Source: Virgibacillus sp. 7505 (GTDB lineage: Bacteria; Bacillota; Bacilli; Bacillales; Amphibacillaceae). From it: DNA of 64,000 nt. Under the pieces are notes generated by a model, which worked only from the letters and a program-made list of their open reading frames with translations, did not search any database and was not told the origin of the DNA. Position 1 is the first letter of the stretch, and each line of letters starts with the position of its first letter. Below, one piece after another: positions 41,591 to 48,768 of the stretch. The stretch is from NCBI RefSeq assembly GCF_002272135.1, contig NZ_NPBF01000032.1, positions 62,001 to 126,000 of the forward strand, read 5' to 3'. A program made the position numbers and the translations under genes.

Positions 41591-42628
41591 GTGAAAAAGC
41601 GTAAATGGATTTGGATCGGGGGAGCAATCCTCATTATTGGAATTGCCATTGGAGGGTATTTGATGGAGAGACAACCACTGCGCAAGCTTGCTCAAGACGA
41701 TGATCTGCTTATAGGCTCTTCGATTCGCTATGATGCCCTGCTGGAGGATGATACATATCGGAAACTGGCTACCACAGAATTCTCCAGCTGGACGATCGAG
41801 AACGAAATGAAAATGGATGCCATGCAGCCAGAGCAAGGAGCCTTCAATTTTGTTAAAGTAGATGAGATGGTGCTAATGGCAGAAGAGCACGATATCAAAC
41901 TCAGGGGCCATGTACTTGTTTGGGGAGAAGCGCTTCCCGCATGGGTATCTCAACAGGCTGTAGATCGCGCTTCCGCAGAGCAAGTGCTCAAAACCCATAT
42001 CCAAGAAATTGTCACTCATTATCAAGGCCGCATCGACTCGTTTGATGTTGTCAACGAAGCGTGGAATGATGATGGTACCTTACGGGATACGATTTGGCTC
42101 CGCACGATTGGACCTGATTATATTCCTCTCGCCTTCCAGTGGGCTCGTGAGGCCAATCCAGATGCTAAGCTGTATTACAATGACTATGGTAATGAAATGT
42201 CCAACGCTAAATCAGAAGCGATGCTGGAAGCTTTGAGCAATTGGAAACAAGAAGGTATCCCAATTGACAGTATCGGTATGCAAACGCATGTAGATGCCGC
42301 TGACCCCCGCTTTTCCAAGGATCGCATCCAGGAATGGTTCACCCGTATAGAAGATGCAGGCTTTGAAATTGCTGTGACGGAAATGGACGTGAAGCTGCAA
42401 AATCTCAACAATGGGGATGCCAAGAATGTCCAAGCTGAACGGTACGGAGATGTGATGGAAGTGTGTCTGGATACACCAGCCTGCGGGGAGTTCACTGTCT
42501 GGGGCATATCCGATAATCATAGCTGGGTTACCGAGCAGGAATCTCCACATGGCAAACCGCTCCTCTTCGATGAAAACGGGCAGCCGAAGAAGGCTTATAA
42601 CACATTGAAACGAAAACTATTATTCTAA
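41591..42628 (+). CDS. Membrane-anchored GH10 glycoside hydrolase
   Basis: This 345-residue protein has an N-terminal anchor (residues 6-23, after MKKRK) and a GH10 domain (about 30-340). The acid/base is Glu156 in FDVVNEAWN and the nucleophile is Glu264 in AVTEMDV; RGHVLVWGEALPAW is the conserved active-site wall. GH10 enzymes are endo-beta-1,4-xylanases. It lies 18 bases before a cellulose-synthase-like gene, so it may trim or edit the exopolysaccharide at the membrane rather than act on plant xylan. GTG start at 41591 with GGAGGG. Confidence 0.85.
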   Translation: MKKRKWIWIGGAILIIGIAIGGYLMERQPLRKLAQDDDLLIGSSIRYDALLEDDTYRKLATTEFSSWTIENEMKMDAMQPEQGAFNFVKVDEMVLMAEEHDIKLRGHVLVWGEALPAWVSQQAVDRASAEQVLKTHIQEIVTHYQGRIDSFDVVNEAWNDDGTLRDTIWLRTIGPDYIPLAFQWAREANPDAKLYYNDYGNEMSNAKSEAMLEALSNWKQEGIPIDSIGMQTHVDAADPRFSKDRIQEWFTRIEDAGFEIAVTEMDVKLQNLNNGDAKNVQAERYGDVMEVCLDTPACGEFTVWGISDNHSWVTEQESPHGKPLLFDENGQPKKAYNTLKRKLLF

Positions 42629-42646: not shown

Positions 42647-44905
42647 ATGCAAACTCCAGAAATCATTTGGCTAATCGCTTCCACAGTCATTCTGCTCGTT
42701 CTTTATGGGTTGGCCCGGAAACATCTAGCTGCTAAGTATTTGCTGCTGGCTGCCTTTCTTGGTATCAACCTTGTCTACTTGATTTGGCGGACGGCATTCA
42801 CATTGCCGACAGTCGGAATACTCAGTCTGATAGTCGGAATCCTGCTGCTGGTGACGGAATGGGCTGGATTTTTACAATCCGTCGTTTTCACCATCCTCTC
42901 CTGGAAGCCGTTCAGGCGGAAAACCATTCCGCTTTCGGAATTCAAGGAACTGCCGACAGTCGATGTATATATTGCCACTTACAATGAACCAGCAGATCTT
43001 CTAAAGCGGACGATTGCAGCGAGCCAAATGATGACTTATCCGCAGGACAAGCTCAAGGTATATGTCTGCGATGATGGAAGACGAGCAGATATCCGGCAAT
43101 TGACTGAATCCATGGGTGCTTACTATTTAGATCGACCGGATAATAAGCATCAAAAAGCCGGGAATCTGAACCATGCGATGACAAAAACAGACGGCGAGAT
43201 CATCGTCACGATGGATGCTGATATGGTACCGCGCGCCAATTTCCTTGAACGCACGCTCGGCTACTTTACCGATAAGAAAGTCTCATTCGTCCAGGCACCG
43301 CAAGTATTCTATAATGCAGACGCATTCCAGTACAATCTGTTCTTCGAGGATAATATTACGAATGAACAAGACTTCTTCATGCGCCGTTTGGAGGAAGGAA
43401 AGGATCGCTTCAATGCGACGATGTATGTCGGAAGCAATGCTTTGTTCCGCCGAAGTGCATTAGAGGAAATCGGGGGTTTCGCAACGGGCGTCATAACCGA
43501 GGATATGGCAACAGGTATGCTTCTCCAGACAAATGGGCAAAAAACAGTCTTTGTGAATGAAGCATTAGCTGTTGGCTTATCCCCTGAAACGTACGCTGAC
43601 CTTCTAAAGCAGCGCGACCGCTGGTGCCGAGGCAATATCCAAGTCATCCGAAAATGGAATCCGCTCACAATCAAAGGTCTGAGCTTCATGCAGCGCTTGC
43701 TGTACATGGATGGAATTCATTATTGGTTCTTTGGTATCTATAAGATGGTGTATTTACTGGCACCATTGCTGTTCCTGCTGTTCTCCATCTATAGTCTGCA
43801 AACCGATTTCTCGACTCTATTACTGTTCTGGCTGCCGGCGTTCCTATCGTCACAGCTCGCGTTCCGCCGCATGGCAGATAACAAAAGGACGACGATTTGG
43901 AGTCACATTTATGAGGTGGCACTCGCCCCTTACATGGCTGTATCTGTTCTAACGGAACTATTCTTCCGAAAATCGATCAAATTCAATGTTACCCGCAAAG
44001 GAATAGTGAATAATCGCCGGCATTTTCTCTGGCGGACAAGCACACCATATGTGATTCTGCTTGCGATGAGCATTGCTAGTATGATTATGATCGGAATAGA
44101 TTTGTTTACCCCTATACAGATTTACGATAATGTCGAAATGCTCTATATCAATATTTTCTGGGTGCTGTACAATGCTGTCGCACTTGTAATGGCTTTGATC
44201 ATTTCGGTGGAACGGCCGCGCTTCCGAGAAGCAGAGCGCTTTGATGTGACGCTGGAAGCAGAGCTTGTGAATAGTCTTGATGAGAAGATGCATTCCATAC
44301 GAATCATTGACTTAAGCGAATATGGCGCAAGACTGGAACTGCTTGATGCAAAAGCAGCCCATCTGCTGTCAGCCGGAATTCCGCTGACGCTTTCCTCAGA
44401 CCCGCTGCAAGGCTTGAAGCTTCACAAGCATTGGGTTTCCCAGCAAGGAAAAAGCTATTATGCAGGCGTATCCTTCCAGGATGTCACGCAGGAACAGTAC
44501 CGTGCCCTTATCAAACTCCTGTTCGTCGATGCACCAGACATATATACGAGCAGGGAATATGTAAATTCAACACTATTGCATGCGGTTTCCCGCTTCTTCC
44601 GTCAAACACAAGCCGAACCAAAACAATCCGAGCGGCAGAGCATCAGGGAGACAATTTCGGTTCCTGGCGTCCTCTATTTTGCTGATACTGGTAAAATAGA
44701 AACCACTCTTATTGATTACAGTCTGAGCGGCTGCCAAATCGAACTGAAGAAACCGATTAAACCAGGTCAAGTACTGCGTCTGCACGCCAATCACAACAGC
44801 TTCCGCGAAAGTGATGTACGTGTCCAATGGGTGCAAAAACGCGGACGAAAATACTTAGCAGGATTGCGATTCCTGACTGAGACAGCTGAATCGGATACTG
44901 CGTAA
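42647..44905 (+). CDS. Cellulose-synthase-like GT2 with tandem PilZ domains
   Basis: This 752-residue BcsA-like synthase has N-terminal helices (about 5-90) and a GT2 catalytic core with all signature residues (DDG at 142-144, DAD at 190-192, TED at 284-286, QRDRW at 322-326), then more helices (about 355-520). Two PilZ domains follow. The first has RxxxR at 527-531 and DLSEYG at 555-560; the second has RQSIR at 663-667 and DYSLSG at 690-695, so both c-di-GMP motifs are intact. BcsA normally has one. It would polymerise a beta-linked glycan across the membrane when c-di-GMP is high. It is in one unit with the GH10 gene. Confidence 0.88.
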   Translation: MQTPEIIWLIASTVILLVLYGLARKHLAAKYLLLAAFLGINLVYLIWRTAFTLPTVGILSLIVGILLLVTEWAGFLQSVVFTILSWKPFRRKTIPLSEFKELPTVDVYIATYNEPADLLKRTIAASQMMTYPQDKLKVYVCDDGRRADIRQLTESMGAYYLDRPDNKHQKAGNLNHAMTKTDGEIIVTMDADMVPRANFLERTLGYFTDKKVSFVQAPQVFYNADAFQYNLFFEDNITNEQDFFMRRLEEGKDRFNATMYVGSNALFRRSALEEIGGFATGVITEDMATGMLLQTNGQKTVFVNEALAVGLSPETYADLLKQRDRWCRGNIQVIRKWNPLTIKGLSFMQRLLYMDGIHYWFFGIYKMVYLLAPLLFLLFSIYSLQTDFSTLLLFWLPAFLSSQLAFRRMADNKRTTIWSHIYEVALAPYMAVSVLTELFFRKSIKFNVTRKGIVNNRRHFLWRTSTPYVILLAMSIASMIMIGIDLFTPIQIYDNVEMLYINIFWVLYNAVALVMALIISVERPRFREAERFDVTLEAELVNSLDEKMHSIRIIDLSEYGARLELLDAKAAHLLSAGIPLTLSSDPLQGLKLHKHWVSQQGKSYYAGVSFQDVTQEQYRALIKLLFVDAPDIYTSREYVNSTLLHAVSRFFRQTQAEPKQSERQSIRETISVPGVLYFADTGKIETTLIDYSLSGCQIELKKPIKPGQVLRLHANHNSFRESDVRVQWVQKRGRKYLAGLRFLTETAESDTA

Positions 44906-44912
44906 ATAAATA

Positions 44913-44940
44913 TGGACATCTATACAATAAATGATATATT
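44913..44940 (+). promoter_or_regulatory. Sigma-A promoter of the EPS operon leader
   Basis: TGGACA-N16-TATATT. Initiation about 7 bases later gives an RNA starting just before the riboswitch candidate. The spacing to the aptamer supports a dedicated promoter rather than read-through only. Confidence 0.6.
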
Positions 44941-44943
44941 ATG

Positions 44944-45042
44944 ACAATAGAAAATGAAGCTTCGACTCTTTATCTGTATGTGGGCACTTGGGTAAAGAAG
45001 AGCTACTAGTGCAACCGCCATTTTATTGGCGGTTGTTTTTTA
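44944..45042 (+). ncRNA. Candidate c-di-GMP-II (GEMM-II) riboswitch with intrinsic terminator
   Basis: The leader has GGGCACTTG (44982-44990) and ACTAGTGCAACCG (45005-45017). They correspond to the conserved GGGCACUUG and AGUAGUGCAACCG of class II c-di-GMP aptamers, with one change in the second. GCACU (44984-44988) pairs with AGUGC (45008-45012), as in that class. The 5' part is less similar. The conserved CAACCG is also the 5' arm of a terminator: CAACCGCCA (45012-45020) pairs with TGGCGGTTG (45027-45035), followed by six T. Aptamer and terminator are therefore mutually exclusive, predicting that c-di-GMP turns the operon on. The downstream genes are c-di-GMP-linked, which agrees. Confidence 0.68.
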
Positions 45043-45067
45043 TTTTGAATAAGAAAGTAGGTTTGAC

Positions 45068-45841
45068 ATGCAGCTCCGGATTTTGTTGACATTTCTTTTA
45101 TGTAGTTTTATGGCATTATCCTTTACAGCATCGTCCTCTATTCCTTTGACCGATGGTTTAATTCTGCTTTTAGCCATTTTTTCCATCCACGCCGGAAGCT
45201 TTGCCAGACAATTTATCACGTTGCTTTTGCTTAGTCTTTCTTTTGGTTTCTTTCTACTTTTCTATGCATTATTCACGCATGCATCTTTGACAGAACAGGT
45301 TTATTATTTGCTTCGCCATATTCTCGTAACTGTTAGCATGGTTTTAATTTGGCTTACCTATGGGATAACATCACGCTATCGTAACGAAAATATAGCACTA
45401 AAAGAGAAGATTCAAGCACTTGAAAAATATGCTGGTTCTTCCCAATTACTAACTTTGACTGAATTTAAGAGTCGTGTGAAGTTGATTTCGACCGGGACGA
45501 AACGACGTAATGAACAAAACTATTATGTTTTTGCTTCCATCGTTACTCCTGAAAAAGTGCTAGAAACCACAAACTCTATTTCCCACATTGTAAGTGAGGG
45601 GATTTTAAGCTCGATACGCGCCGAATTCGACTTAGTCACACAAGTAAAAGAAGAGCAATTCCTTATCTTCCTTCAGAATACCAATGAAGCAGGATGTCAA
45701 ATTGTAATTGACAGATTGATGGGTAAACTTCGGAATCAATTTAATCTGATTGATCCTCCTCTCATATGTGAAACTGTACTGGAGGAAGAGATAGAATCTA
45801 TCTTAGAGATAACCCAGCCATTCAAAGGAGCAGCAGGATGA
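45068..45841 (+). CDS. YdaK-like membrane protein with degenerate GGDEF domain
   Basis: This 257-residue protein has four or five hydrophobic helices (about 3-115) and a cytoplasmic GGDEF-like domain (about 130-255). At the active-site position the sequence is TQVKEEQFLIFL in place of GGDEF, so it should not make c-di-GMP. B. subtilis YdaK, of the same design, is an inactive GGDEF protein that binds c-di-GMP and activates the adjoining glycosyltransferases. It overlaps the next gene by four bases. Ribosome site AAGTAGG is moderate. It directly follows the riboswitch terminator. Confidence 0.78.
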   Translation: MQLRILLTFLLCSFMALSFTASSSIPLTDGLILLLAIFSIHAGSFARQFITLLLLSLSFGFFLLFYALFTHASLTEQVYYLLRHILVTVSMVLIWLTYGITSRYRNENIALKEKIQALEKYAGSSQLLTLTEFKSRVKLISTGTKRRNEQNYYVFASIVTPEKVLETTNSISHIVSEGILSSIRAEFDLVTQVKEEQFLIFLQNTNEAGCQIVIDRLMGKLRNQFNLIDPPLICETVLEEEIESILEITQPFKGAAG

Positions 45842-47067
45842 AGATTATTCTAGTAGCAGTTATGGCCTTTTTCTGGATTCTACTCATCTATTATTCCATT
45901 CTTACAATCGCCGGCGTTTTACAGCGATTGAAAAGGAAAGAAGAAATTACTTTACCGTCCTATCCCTCTGTTGCTGTTTTAATTCCTGCGCATAATGAAG
46001 GAGTCGTGATAAAGCAGACTTTAGAAGCTATGATTCGACTAAAATACCCAGGAGCTTTGGATGTCTATGTTTTGGATGATGCCTCTACAGATGACACAGC
46101 GGAGATCATTCAAAAATTCAGCAGCACTTTCTCCCGTATACATTATTTAAAAGTCCCTCCTGGGTCTCCGAAAGGAAAATCAAGGGTACTTAATTATGGA
46201 TTATCTGTAACGACATCTGATTATTTCATTGTCTTTGATGCAGATAATCAGCCCGCTGAAGACAGTGTGATGGAATTGATTCACGCTGCAGAACGTACTC
46301 CTGACGCTGGAGGAGCAGTGGGTTATGTTAAGACTATCAATGCAGACCGAAACGTATTGACCAGAATGATCTCGATCGAATTTCAGGTCTTTCAGCTATT
46401 AATGCAAAGTGGTCGATGGAAGATGTTTAAAACAGGTTCCCTGGCAGGAACGAACATGCTGCTTCGAAGAAGTGTTCTGCAGGAAGCTGGGGGGTATGAC
46501 CTGTATGCTCTTGCCGAGGATGCAGAACTTACTGTCAGGCTGACGGCTTTAGGGTGGAAATTACCTGTTGTTCACCACTCTAGAACATGGGAACAGGAAC
46601 CAGAGAAAATCAGTATCTTTGTCAGACAGCGTACAAGATGGCTGACAGGTAATATCTATCTATTGGAGAAATCGTTTCATGAATGGAGTTATTGGAAAGG
46701 AAAGACGTTTGTCCATAGCTTCCAGCATGTTTTGACTTATTTATTATTTGTATTAATGCTGCTATTTTCAAATACATGGTTCATTCTAAGCTTACTAGGA
46801 GTCAACCTGCCCGATTTTGAATCTCCTTTGCTGTTGTTCTGGTTTATGAGCTATGTAGTTTATACTGCTCAGGTCGTCAGTGCAATGGTGCTTGAAAGGA
46901 CTATTACCCCCTTTAATGTACTTATCGGCTTAATCATGTATTTCACTTATGCTCAGATCTTCCTGTTATTGCTTTTACGGAGTGGACTTTCTTATATATG
47001 GAGCCGGCTGACGAAGCAAACAATTAAGTGGGATAAAACAGAAAGGTTTAAGGATGATGCAGCATAA
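45838..47067 (+). CDS. GT2 glycosyltransferase, YdaM-like
   Basis: This 409-residue processive GT2 enzyme has an N-terminal helix, a catalytic domain (VAVLIPAHNEG; LDDASTDDTAE; FDADNQP; AEDAELT; RQRTRW, all at the expected spacings) and four C-terminal helices (about 300-395). It resembles B. subtilis YdaM, thought to polymerise an unknown exopolysaccharide under YdaK control. It overlaps ydaK-like by 4 and ydaJ-like by 14 bases. The sugar donor is not readable; the GH10 and UDP-glucose dehydrogenase genes in this window are only hints. Confidence 0.82.
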   Translation: MKIILVAVMAFFWILLIYYSILTIAGVLQRLKRKEEITLPSYPSVAVLIPAHNEGVVIKQTLEAMIRLKYPGALDVYVLDDASTDDTAEIIQKFSSTFSRIHYLKVPPGSPKGKSRVLNYGLSVTTSDYFIVFDADNQPAEDSVMELIHAAERTPDAGGAVGYVKTINADRNVLTRMISIEFQVFQLLMQSGRWKMFKTGSLAGTNMLLRRSVLQEAGGYDLYALAEDAELTVRLTALGWKLPVVHHSRTWEQEPEKISIFVRQRTRWLTGNIYLLEKSFHEWSYWKGKTFVHSFQHVLTYLLFVLMLLFSNTWFILSLLGVNLPDFESPLLLFWFMSYVVYTAQVVSAMVLERTITPFNVLIGLIMYFTYAQIFLLLLLRSGLSYIWSRLTKQTIKWDKTERFKDDAA

Positions 47068-48097
47068 AGGTTATGTTGCTAAAATACTTTTGCTGCTGAT
47101 TTGTAGCCTTCTTTTGTTTTTAAATTTCTCTTCTTCTGTTGACCAGGAAACAGTTACTAGTACCGTCAAACAACAATACAAGAACAAAGAAGGTTTCATT
47201 GCTAGCTATGGAGATGGAGAACGCGACACTACTCCTATCCTTCTTGAAAGCCTCGGGCAATACATGGAATATTTACTCATAGTCGGAGATAGCCAAGAAT
47301 TTGAGGAGCAGTTTCTCCTGCTTCAATCTAACTTCACAGTCACTACCGATGAGGGCATTTTTCTAAAGTGGCAGCTGGAAGAAGATGTAACTGCAAATGC
47401 TTCAGTAGACGATTACCGGATAATAAGAACACTGCTAAGAGGGGGAGAACAGTTTCATAATTCCTCTTACACTAATTTTGCAGGACAGATATGGGATACA
47501 ATGAATAAAACACAAACTGTTAATGGTTTAATCGTTGATTTCTATGATTGGTCATCACAACAAAGAACATCCGAGATTCATCTCAGTTATATAGATTATG
47601 ATGTGCTGGAGAAGCTGCAAGCTTCCAAATTACCTAGATACAAGCAAATCTTGGCAGATGGCCTGACAGACAAAATTTTTTTCAATGAAATCTACAACCC
47701 GGAAAACAATAGCTACCACACAGCAAATGCAGAGACGGTAAATATGATTGATCAATTCTTGATTGCTATTCAGTATGCAGAAAGTACACATGAAAAACCG
47801 AAAAGTTTTCATGATTGGGTTCAAACTCAAATGCAAAATAATGGTCTATTATATGGCGGCTATGACCGTAACACCGGCAAGCCCGTAGTTAATTATGAAT
47901 CTAGTGCTGTATATGCGCTTGCTTTGATTTATAGTTTAATAGTAGATGATCAGCAAATGTCCGAGACTCTATACAGCCAGCTGCAGAAACAATCACCCTT
48001 GCAGGCTGACCCAAATTACAATGATATCCATTTCTTTGATTATATGTATGCTTCTTATACAGCAACACTATATAAAGAACAAAAAAGCAGTCGTTGA
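47054..48097 (+). CDS. YdaJ-like GH8-type glycoside hydrolase, membrane-anchored
   Basis: This 347-residue protein has an N-terminal signal/anchor (about 8-26) and an extracellular alpha/alpha toroid. The putative catalytic Glu is in TTPILLESLGQYMEYLLIVGD (about residue 73), the GH8-type helix. YETAVYALALIYSLIVDD-like segments (YESSAVYALALIYSL) near the end are also typical. B. subtilis YdaJ is the counterpart and probably cuts or modifies the exopolymer. It overlaps the GT2 gene by 14 bases. The operon lacks ydaL and ydaN homologues. A hairpin overlaps its stop codon. Confidence 0.75.
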   Translation: MMQHKGYVAKILLLLICSLLLFLNFSSSVDQETVTSTVKQQYKNKEGFIASYGDGERDTTPILLESLGQYMEYLLIVGDSQEFEEQFLLLQSNFTVTTDEGIFLKWQLEEDVTANASVDDYRIIRTLLRGGEQFHNSSYTNFAGQIWDTMNKTQTVNGLIVDFYDWSSQQRTSEIHLSYIDYDVLEKLQASKLPRYKQILADGLTDKIFFNEIYNPENNSYHTANAETVNMIDQFLIAIQYAESTHEKPKSFHDWVQTQMQNNGLLYGGYDRNTGKPVVNYESSAVYALALIYSLIVDDQQMSETLYSQLQKQSPLQADPNYNDIHFFDYMYASYTATLYKEQKSSR

Positions 48098-48106
48098 CTG
48101 CTTTTT
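48082..48106. terminator. Bidirectional terminator
   Basis: An 11-bp stem AAAAAGCAGTC/GACTGCTTTTT with a 3-base loop covers the stop codon of the ydaJ-like gene and abuts the convergent gene at 48106. Confidence 0.88.
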
Positions 48107-48768
48107 TATCCTTTAATATATGCATACAGCTCCTGCGTCTCCGTTTCAGCACCAAATGCACGCGTTGCGCCCCACACCTTATCCACTTCTGCTCCATTGA
48201 TTTCTGCGTCCATATCATGAAAAATCCGATGCACATAACGCAGACTGTTCAGGTCCGCGCTGTCTGTTGCGATTCGCATGAACGCCTCGGCGTTCCACAT
48301 ATCGTTTACAGCTTCTGATGGAGCAAAGCCTTCCGTTCGCAGTCTTTCTACATCCTTCTGCAGCTGCTGCCATTCCTCTGATTGAGCCAGATAGTCGATA
48401 TCTACATTATCGATGTGTCCCCAGCCAGTGAGATCATTCAAATAGGCATGCTGGTCACTGATGATTTGCTTGACCAGCTCTTCATTCTGATAGGCAACTT
48501 GTTCATCATAGACCTCGTATGTGAACGTAGAAAGGAAATCCTTTGTATCGCCAGAAAGTTCCTCCAGCTTGGACGCCCCTTCTCCTTTCTCTACTGGCTT
48601 CAATTGTTTATCTTCCGGCATTTCAGCTGGCAATTGTTCTTGCTGCGTTGCCTCATTTTCTTTCCCGCTGGCTGAATCGTTTTCTTCCTGTGATAGGAAG
48701 AAGTAGATGCCAGTACCTGTTATTGCAAGTATACAAATACATATTAATGTTATAAAAAATGCCTTCAC
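48106..48768 (-). CDS. Membrane-anchored extracellular protein, unknown
   Basis: This 220-residue protein has an N-terminal anchor (about 4-27), a Glu/Gln-rich linker (about 30-65) and a soluble helical domain (about 70-220) with conserved-looking DLTGWGHIDNVDIDYLAQSEEWQQL and LNSLRYVHRIFHDMDAEING. GTG at 48768 follows AGAGGAG by eight bases and is preferred to the GTG at 48777. It stands alone between the exopolysaccharide operon and ppk. The family may be one of the unnamed Bacillaceae DUFs; I cannot name it. Confidence 0.62.
   Translation of the reverse strand: MKAFFITLICICILAITGTGIYFFLSQEENDSASGKENEATQQEQLPAEMPEDKQLKPVEKGEGASKLEELSGDTKDFLSTFTYEVYDEQVAYQNEELVKQIISDQHAYLNDLTGWGHIDNVDIDYLAQSEEWQQLQKDVERLRTEGFAPSEAVNDMWNAEAFMRIATDSADLNSLRYVHRIFHDMDAEINGAEVDKVWGATRAFGAETETQELYAYIKG

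Follow-up and report, generated by a model that had tools for sequence, protein, structure and literature searches.

A class II c-di-GMP riboswitch aptamer with a predicted ON terminator ahead of a three-gene ydaK-type operon in Terribacillus

In C. difficile, class II riboswitches for cyclic di-GMP (c-di-GMP) are described as ON switches (PMC6200980, PMC11477304); genes behind all four of them rise with c-di-GMP, the class II targets responding over 0.6 to 14 uM in cells (PMC6200980), and the affinity of the class II aptamer is given as ~200 pM (PMC12564702). These and later statements on published work hold for the excerpts of the cited papers. Here, a class II c-di-GMP aptamer was located in a 64-kb stretch of contig NZ_NPBF01000032.1 (the window), from a Terribacillus genome of 3.66 Mb in 578 contigs, upstream of a ydaK-like gene, a family 2 glycosyltransferase (GT2) gene and a ydaJ-like gene. 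Compared with Cdi-2-4 upstream of C. difficile pilA1, the aptamer, pseudoknot and kept core are the same and the ON direction is predicted; the target differs, being a putative exopolysaccharide operon with a gene for a likely c-di-GMP receptor of its own.

B. subtilis ydaJKLMN, like the window, joins a degenerate-GGDEF YdaK with four transmembrane (TM) helices to a polymer operon under c-di-GMP. Affinity for c-di-GMP is ~1 uM for B. subtilis YdaK (PMC5422440), as for Listeria PssE. The I-site of B. subtilis YdaK is required for exopolysaccharide, and ydaJ-N is described as PsigB-driven (PMC5422440); control by YdaK is described as most likely post-translational, tied to a local DgcK-YdaK contact. 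By description, not by sequence, the window operon differs in being riboswitch-driven (predicted), in its order K-M-J and in having no YdaL. In the B. subtilis operon, YdaM is taken here to be the GT2 and YdaJ the hydrolase. Listeria monocytogenes pssA-E/PssZ also combines an I-site degenerate GGDEF receptor (PssE), a GT2 and the PssZ hydrolase; it differs in having the BcsB-like PssD and, as described, no identifiable c-di-GMP riboswitches (PMC4125290). The Pel system is alike in that the inactive-GGDEF receptor PelD turns on the synthase (PMC5852609), and differs in its gene set; no riboswitch before pel is named in the excerpts examined.

All parts of the locus are of known kinds. Within the open literature searched, which was seen as excerpts and leaves subscription journals and riboswitch databases outside its scope, neither a riboswitch controlling ydaK or pss operons nor a ydaK operon joined to a c-di-GMP riboswitch was found described. 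A first-pass annotation of the window, which had proposed the riboswitch, likewise knew of none on ydaJKLMN itself. This agrees with a search of 14 control genomes including B. subtilis, in which RF01786 gave no match at E 0.001; at E 1, matches below the cut-off appeared in three control genomes, B. subtilis not among them.

The whole window was scanned with cmscan against Rfam 15 at gathering thresholds. The sole match was RF01786 at 44946-45029 (+), with 68.8 bits (cut-off 53.5), E 2.5e-13, and model positions 1-84 of 84, so that the c-di-GMP-II aptamer of the first-pass annotation, which had named this covariance-model search as its check, is confirmed at sequence level as full-length. It was the single class II copy found in the host genome. 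The features of the unit are as follows.

44913-44942 (+): sigma-A-like promoter, TGGACA-16-TATATT (or TGGACA-18-TATTAT), by motif match; it also stands before the aptamer in two other Terribacillus species, T. saccharophilus (locus L063) and genome G008 (locus L064)
44946-45029 (+): class II c-di-GMP riboswitch aptamer (RF01786)
44951-44956/45019-45024 (+): aptamer helix P1, from the Rfam structure line
44958-44960/45002-45004 (+): aptamer helix P2, from the Rfam structure line
44967-44974/44991-44998 (+): aptamer helix P3, from the Rfam structure line
44984-44988/45008-45012 (+): aptamer pseudoknot P4 (GCACU with AGUGC), strands assigned by hand
45011-45045 (+): intrinsic terminator, 10-bp stem 45011-45020/45027-45036 with T-rich tail to 45045, by stem finding, shuffles and ensemble
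45068-45841 (+): YdaK-like protein, 257 aa, four predicted TM helices and a degenerate GGDEF domain (residues ~118-248)
45838-47067 (+): processive GT2 glycosyltransferase, 409 aa, QRTRW at 264, PF13641 8.7e-31
47054-48097 (+): YdaJ/PssZ-like secreted or membrane-anchored (alpha/alpha)6 glycoside hydrolase, 347 aa, by structure-profile matches
48081-48107 (+): hairpin AAAAAAGCAGTC-GTT-GACTGCTTTTTT, likely operon terminator, by sequence reading

Covariation was counted over 34 aptamers (window and relatives), the Rfam structure covering P1, P2 and P3, and P4 being added manually before the count. The four helices were paired in 82.4% of cells vs 66.3% in shuffles, and changes on both sides were seen in 23 of 27 pairs (shuffled mean 18.7). 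P4 was paired in every cell (100%), and 3 of its 5 pairs showed compensatory changes; P2 and P3 were paired in 95.1%, and P1, the weakest, in 60.9%; 17 columns were identical in all 34 aptamers, window included. The comparison with related genomes that the first-pass annotation had called for thus returned covariation. Its remark that the 5' half is the weaker match applies to outer P1, where 4 of 11 pairs are non-standard, a point against the proposed switch, and not to P2, P3 and the pseudoknot, which are fully paired in the window sequence.

Directly after the aptamer stands the terminator GCAACCGCCA-UUUUAU-UGGCGGUUGU, followed by a U tract. A stem of equal quality to that formed by the 5' arm was obtained in 1 of 2000 shuffles; a chance match of the aptamer was ruled out by the RF01786 score, the covariation and the terminator shuffles. 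The 5' arm takes two P4 bases (GC), the AACC core and the first two bases of the P1 3' strand, and the loop takes the remainder of that strand. Since the terminator reuses the conserved CAACC and the P1 3' strand, folded aptamer and terminator would be mutually exclusive, which predicts an ON switch. The promoter, the terminator and the CAACCG shared by its 5' arm had all been read correctly in the first pass, the promoter as a promoter-like motif: such matches were no commoner than chance (8 found, mean 9.9 in shuffles), and the gene upstream of the promoter differs in G008. In ensembles of transcripts of 88 to 100 nt, calculated with no ligand and no pseudoknot term and with ligand energy and folding order outside the model, the terminator had a mean pair probability of 0.966-0.987 and P1 of 0. 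The terminator thus dominates the ligand-free ensemble, and the aptamer must be paid for by ligand or pseudoknot energy or by folding first.

The proposed mechanism is a c-di-GMP-II transcriptional ON riboswitch controlling the three-gene operon. Transcription would start at ~44948, and the aptamer would be made first. Without c-di-GMP, GCAACCGCCA would pair with UGGCGGUUGU and transcription would stop at the U tract ~22 nt before ydaK; with c-di-GMP, the aptamer would hold P4, the AACC core and P1, the terminator would be blocked, and the operon would be transcribed. The YdaK-like membrane protein would then have to bind c-di-GMP through a variant I-site to activate the GT2 synthase. One signal would in this way gate both the making and the running of the machine, a coherent feed-forward arrangement with AND-like control. 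On the sequence evidence, the ligand-ON terminator switch is very probably correct; the coupled sensing by YdaK is considered quite likely, and the two combined are still judged probable.

The three genes overlap as the first-pass annotation had stated, and from the riboswitch to the closing hairpin there is no other gene. The GT2 also matched PgaC_IcaA (1.2e-34), far under the equivalog cut-off, and is presumably of the YdaM/PssC/PgaC type. For the YdaJ-like protein, one Pfam family was found below the cut-off, none over it, and none in NCBIfam. Its family profile matched the solved structures 6R2M (PssZ) at 1.9e-84 and 3REN (CPF_2247) at 1.3e-26. For YdaK and YdaJ alike, profile searches of solved structures outperformed Pfam and NCBIfam. 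No YdaL lies in the three-gene operon, and a PF03170 search for BcsB (YdaN/PssD) was empty at E 0.01 over the whole host genome, the B. subtilis control being positive. The ydaJKLMN-type system named in the first pass accordingly stands for ydaK, the GT2 and ydaJ and falls short of YdaL and BcsB; read by sequence, the window operon is a three-gene ydaK-GT2-ydaJ variant of ydaJKLMN/pss.

Whether YdaK senses c-di-GMP was weighed against the explanation that the riboswitch is ON but the GGDEF domain of YdaK is a structural or assembly subunit, not a sensor, with control by transcription alone. That explanation draws on two observations. The I-site-like motif, R184-x-x-x-D188, has the form RxxxD rather than RxxD, both in the window protein and throughout the 26 rows of the YdaK alignment. 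The Pfam scan gave no family, the GGDEF model falling below its cut-off, and NCBIfam gave a single match, far below cut-off, over the TM stretch. Comparison of the YdaK profile with the host genome's own GGDEF domains was also weak (probability 22.8, E 0.00091). Fold comparison, by contrast with the Pfam result, matched the domain to the GGDEF fold, with the PelD structures 4DMZ and 4DN0 among the matches; judged by the modelled fold, the degenerate GGDEF domain is real. The GGDEF position reads KEEQF; D188 lies at the five-residue I-site distance from it, and the Arg is one residue further away. Although the GGDEF motif is lost, the alignment of 288 columns keeps just 11 invariant, the I-site R and D among them, which suggests a retained binding site. 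The structure model sets R184 and D188 between helix 165-182 and strand 189-194, which we take to be where an I-site lies. A regular-expression survey of 90 YdaK-like open reading frames found RxxxD alone in 54, both motifs in 5, RxxD alone in 10 and neither in 21. The micromolar binding by B. subtilis YdaK and Listeria PssE also speaks for sensing, and a purely structural role is considered unlikely. Of the first-pass claim that a degenerate GGDEF product senses the same signal after translation, the domain therefore holds, with a motif other than RxxD; the sensing by YdaK we infer.

The gap between the class II affinity and that of YdaK and PssE invites a reading of two thresholds, but given the C. 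difficile class II response range, RNA and protein thresholds may overlap. Receptors of two kinds, one an RNA and the other a likely protein, appear to act successively on a single operon, so that the value of double sensing is testable by removing either. If the proposal is true, the same messenger releases transcription through the RNA and then switches on the synthase through the YdaK encoded by that transcript. How specific outputs arise from one diffusible second messenger is an open question in c-di-GMP biology; should the ligand response prove ordinary, the benefit would be modest, since neither the RNA class nor any of the protein families is new. Signalling by c-di-GMP is present in the host genome, judging from 2 class I aptamers, both away from the window locus, and 11 GGDEF stretches over the cut-off, including 2 adjacent halves. 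In this genome (G000), the two class I aptamers stand before a 122-aa protein without Pfam match (L158, G000:C25:52851) and before a 342-aa HD_5 protein, possibly a c-di-GMP phosphodiesterase (L159, G000:C26:79191).

An OFF or translational switch, in which the ligand-bound aptamer represses the operon, has in its favour that most class I c-di-GMP riboswitches of C. difficile are OFF switches (PMC6200980) and that the switching direction in the window is a prediction. It is very doubtful nonetheless: the terminator uses bases needed by the folded aptamer, it precedes the start codon with its U tract, and the four C. difficile class II switches run the other way. The ligand-ON terminator reading gains further support from relatives, whose terminators were compared by stem finding. 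In 6 of 7 ydaK riboswitch loci (five distinct sequences, the window and G520 being the same species), the 5' arm starts within the GCAACC of the aptamer and the stem measures 8 to 11 bp; no more than 5 of 2000 single-base shuffles equalled any of the six. The bases after AACC vary by genus and the 3' arm co-varies (GCCA/TGGC, AACCATT/AATGGTT, ACCTA/TAGGT, GTCC/GGAC). The claim of a ligand-ON terminator made in the first pass is thus backed by predicted geometry and by recurrence with covariation.

Recurrence of the pairing was followed in a relatives set of 150 genomes, of which 18 (own included) matched YdaK, G037 and G121 weakly and through stops. A class II aptamer stood directly upstream of ydaK in 4 of the 18 (G000, G001, G129 and G132); G001 is T. 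saccharophilus 7503-2, of the same genus as the window, and its GT2 is 96% identical. The order ydaK-GT2-ydaJ was found in 13 of the 15 regions fetched for the 18, L076 and L077 being without ydaJ. Among named GT2 loci (the best 80 of 129 GT2 relatives in named genomes), ydaK was directly upstream in 77, ydaJ directly downstream in 49, and a DUF2334 protein, which we label YdaL-like, was present in 15. A second model, built from the 34 aptamers, was run on these 80 loci and 11 further fetched regions. It matched 4 of the 80 and none of the 11. Three of the four, T. saccharophilus (G001), H. ginsengihumi (G129) and P. megaterium CH447_14T (G132), match by construction; the fourth, B. badius, is a new case at 67.3 bits, over the Rfam cut-off. 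A sample of 397 genomes across the order contained 32 with a strong match to YdaK (E below 1e-25), of which at least 4 carried the aptamer next to ydaK (G000, G129, G132 and G487, the last being B. badius).

Some findings weigh against a fixed association. Within the stretch examined, 76 of the 80 named loci were without a class II aptamer, upstream sequence being short in some (almost none before the GT2 in L100, <600 bases before ydaK in L079, L130 and L142); the riboswitch is thus not a standard part of such operons. In a fifth genome, G008, a transposase gene (HTH_38 and rve), presumably of the IS30 family, lies between the class II aptamer and ydaK. Its ydaK is broken and split over two reading frames (L064, 6262-8203). 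Its terminator has 3 bp from GCAACC by the stem finder, with 1009 of 2000 shuffles as good; a 6-bp stem, CGCCAT/ATGGCG, before a T tract was read by eye. The short stem, the inserted transposase and the broken ydaK indicate that the unit is not always kept; by its sequence, it is decaying in G008.

A GT2 tree of 57 rows was built by a quick method from the window sequence, G008 and 55 named loci, the other 25 of the 80, mostly Planococcus and Sporosarcina and none aptamer-positive, being omitted; the class II label needed three changes on it. Terribacillus and the Heyndrickxia-Priestia pair fall inside one well-supported 14-row group, where one gain with losses is possible, so that the sequences point to acquisition of the class II riboswitch by ydaK operons on two or three branches. 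A class I aptamer (RF01051) was found 113 bases upstream of a ydaJ-ydaL-ydaK-GT2-ydaJ run in Priestia koreensis (L086, 1689-1785), all on one strand. The logic is the same, a c-di-GMP aptamer upstream of a yda-type operon; the RNA class and the genus differ, and the recruitment would be separate. By eye, the 3' flank of the L086 aptamer resembles a terminator sharing a P1 strand. Class I matches near ydaK in L080 and L112 were on the opposite strand and were not counted. Class I aptamers occurred at least once in 41 of 49 genomes surveyed, a survey not matched systematically to operon positions, so that the single class I ydaK case is a lower bound.

Within Terribacillus, the same-species genome G520 carries an arrangement identical to that of the window, where the neighbours outside the riboswitch unit are the following.

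42647-44905 (+): bcsA, a cellulose-synthase-like GT2 with two C-terminal PilZ domains
41591-42628: GH10 enzyme adjoining bcsA

G000, G520 and G001 have GH10-bcsA plus the promoter, the riboswitch and the three genes. The proline dehydrogenase-ppk interval of G003, G004 and G005 holds GH10-bcsA, without ydaK and without riboswitch-like sequence. G007 also has GH10-bcsA without ydaK or riboswitch, hyp223 and ppk lying outside the fetched stretch; in G008, riboswitch and damaged operon are present and bcsA is absent. This pattern of presence and absence, seen at one and the same place in Terribacillus, makes the promoter, the aptamer and the three genes one block, with bcsA as a neighbour.

Intact PilM (PF11104), a marker of the type IV pilus, was found in 5 of 10 Terribacillus genomes (G003-G007) and a remnant with stops in G002; the four genomes that carry the ydaK block yielded none. 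PilM and the block never occurred together, a split that rests on ten genomes and few events and does not prove exclusion. In all five of G003-G007, a class II riboswitch precedes a type IV pilin. Of the 30 class II loci examined in relatives (L002-L031), 24 are followed by a prepilin motif, at a distance of no more than 300 nt in 23; the pilin gene is the commonest class II target among the relatives examined, as at C. difficile pilA1.

That the class II aptamer belongs to bcsA, which ends at 44905, 7 bases ahead of the -35 box, or is a type IV pilus leftover of the kind that these prepilin loci suggest, with ydaK behind it by chance, is barely credible: bcsA lies upstream of the promoter and occurs in four congeners (G003, G004, G005 and G007) without ydaK or an adjacent class II match, bcsA is absent from G008, where riboswitch and ydaK are present, and three other genera show the pairing as well. 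The window aptamer is 0.74-0.76 identical to the Priestia/Heyndrickxia ydaK aptamers and, at 0.73, nearly as close to a Terribacillus pilin aptamer; this difference carries little weight, and the identities did not decide common ancestry of the ydaK aptamers. A riboswitch forming part of bcsA was rejected by the comparison of congeners.

In a wider proposal, rated an even chance, the two-step c-di-GMP gate holds, c-di-GMP riboswitches have been recruited repeatedly to ydaK operons, class II on two or three branches and class I on another, and class II marks pili or exopolysaccharide in Terribacillus. If true, the c-di-GMP-II riboswitch in Terribacillus marks alternative sessile outputs, type IV pili or exopolysaccharide by species. 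The repeated recruitment to ydaK operons and the pilus-or-polysaccharide split in one genus form a natural comparison set.

Both tandem PilZ domains of the window bcsA carry RxxxR and DxSxxG motifs (RPRFR/DLSEYG and RQSIR/DYSLSG), which we assume to have their usual meaning in PilZ domains; no BcsB partner for bcsA was found in the host genome. A class II match in G002 stayed below the cut-off (44.8 bits). G003 has a second class II match over the cut-off (57.4 bits; L162, G003:C2:95491-95573), in a different gene neighbourhood on a 115-kb contig.

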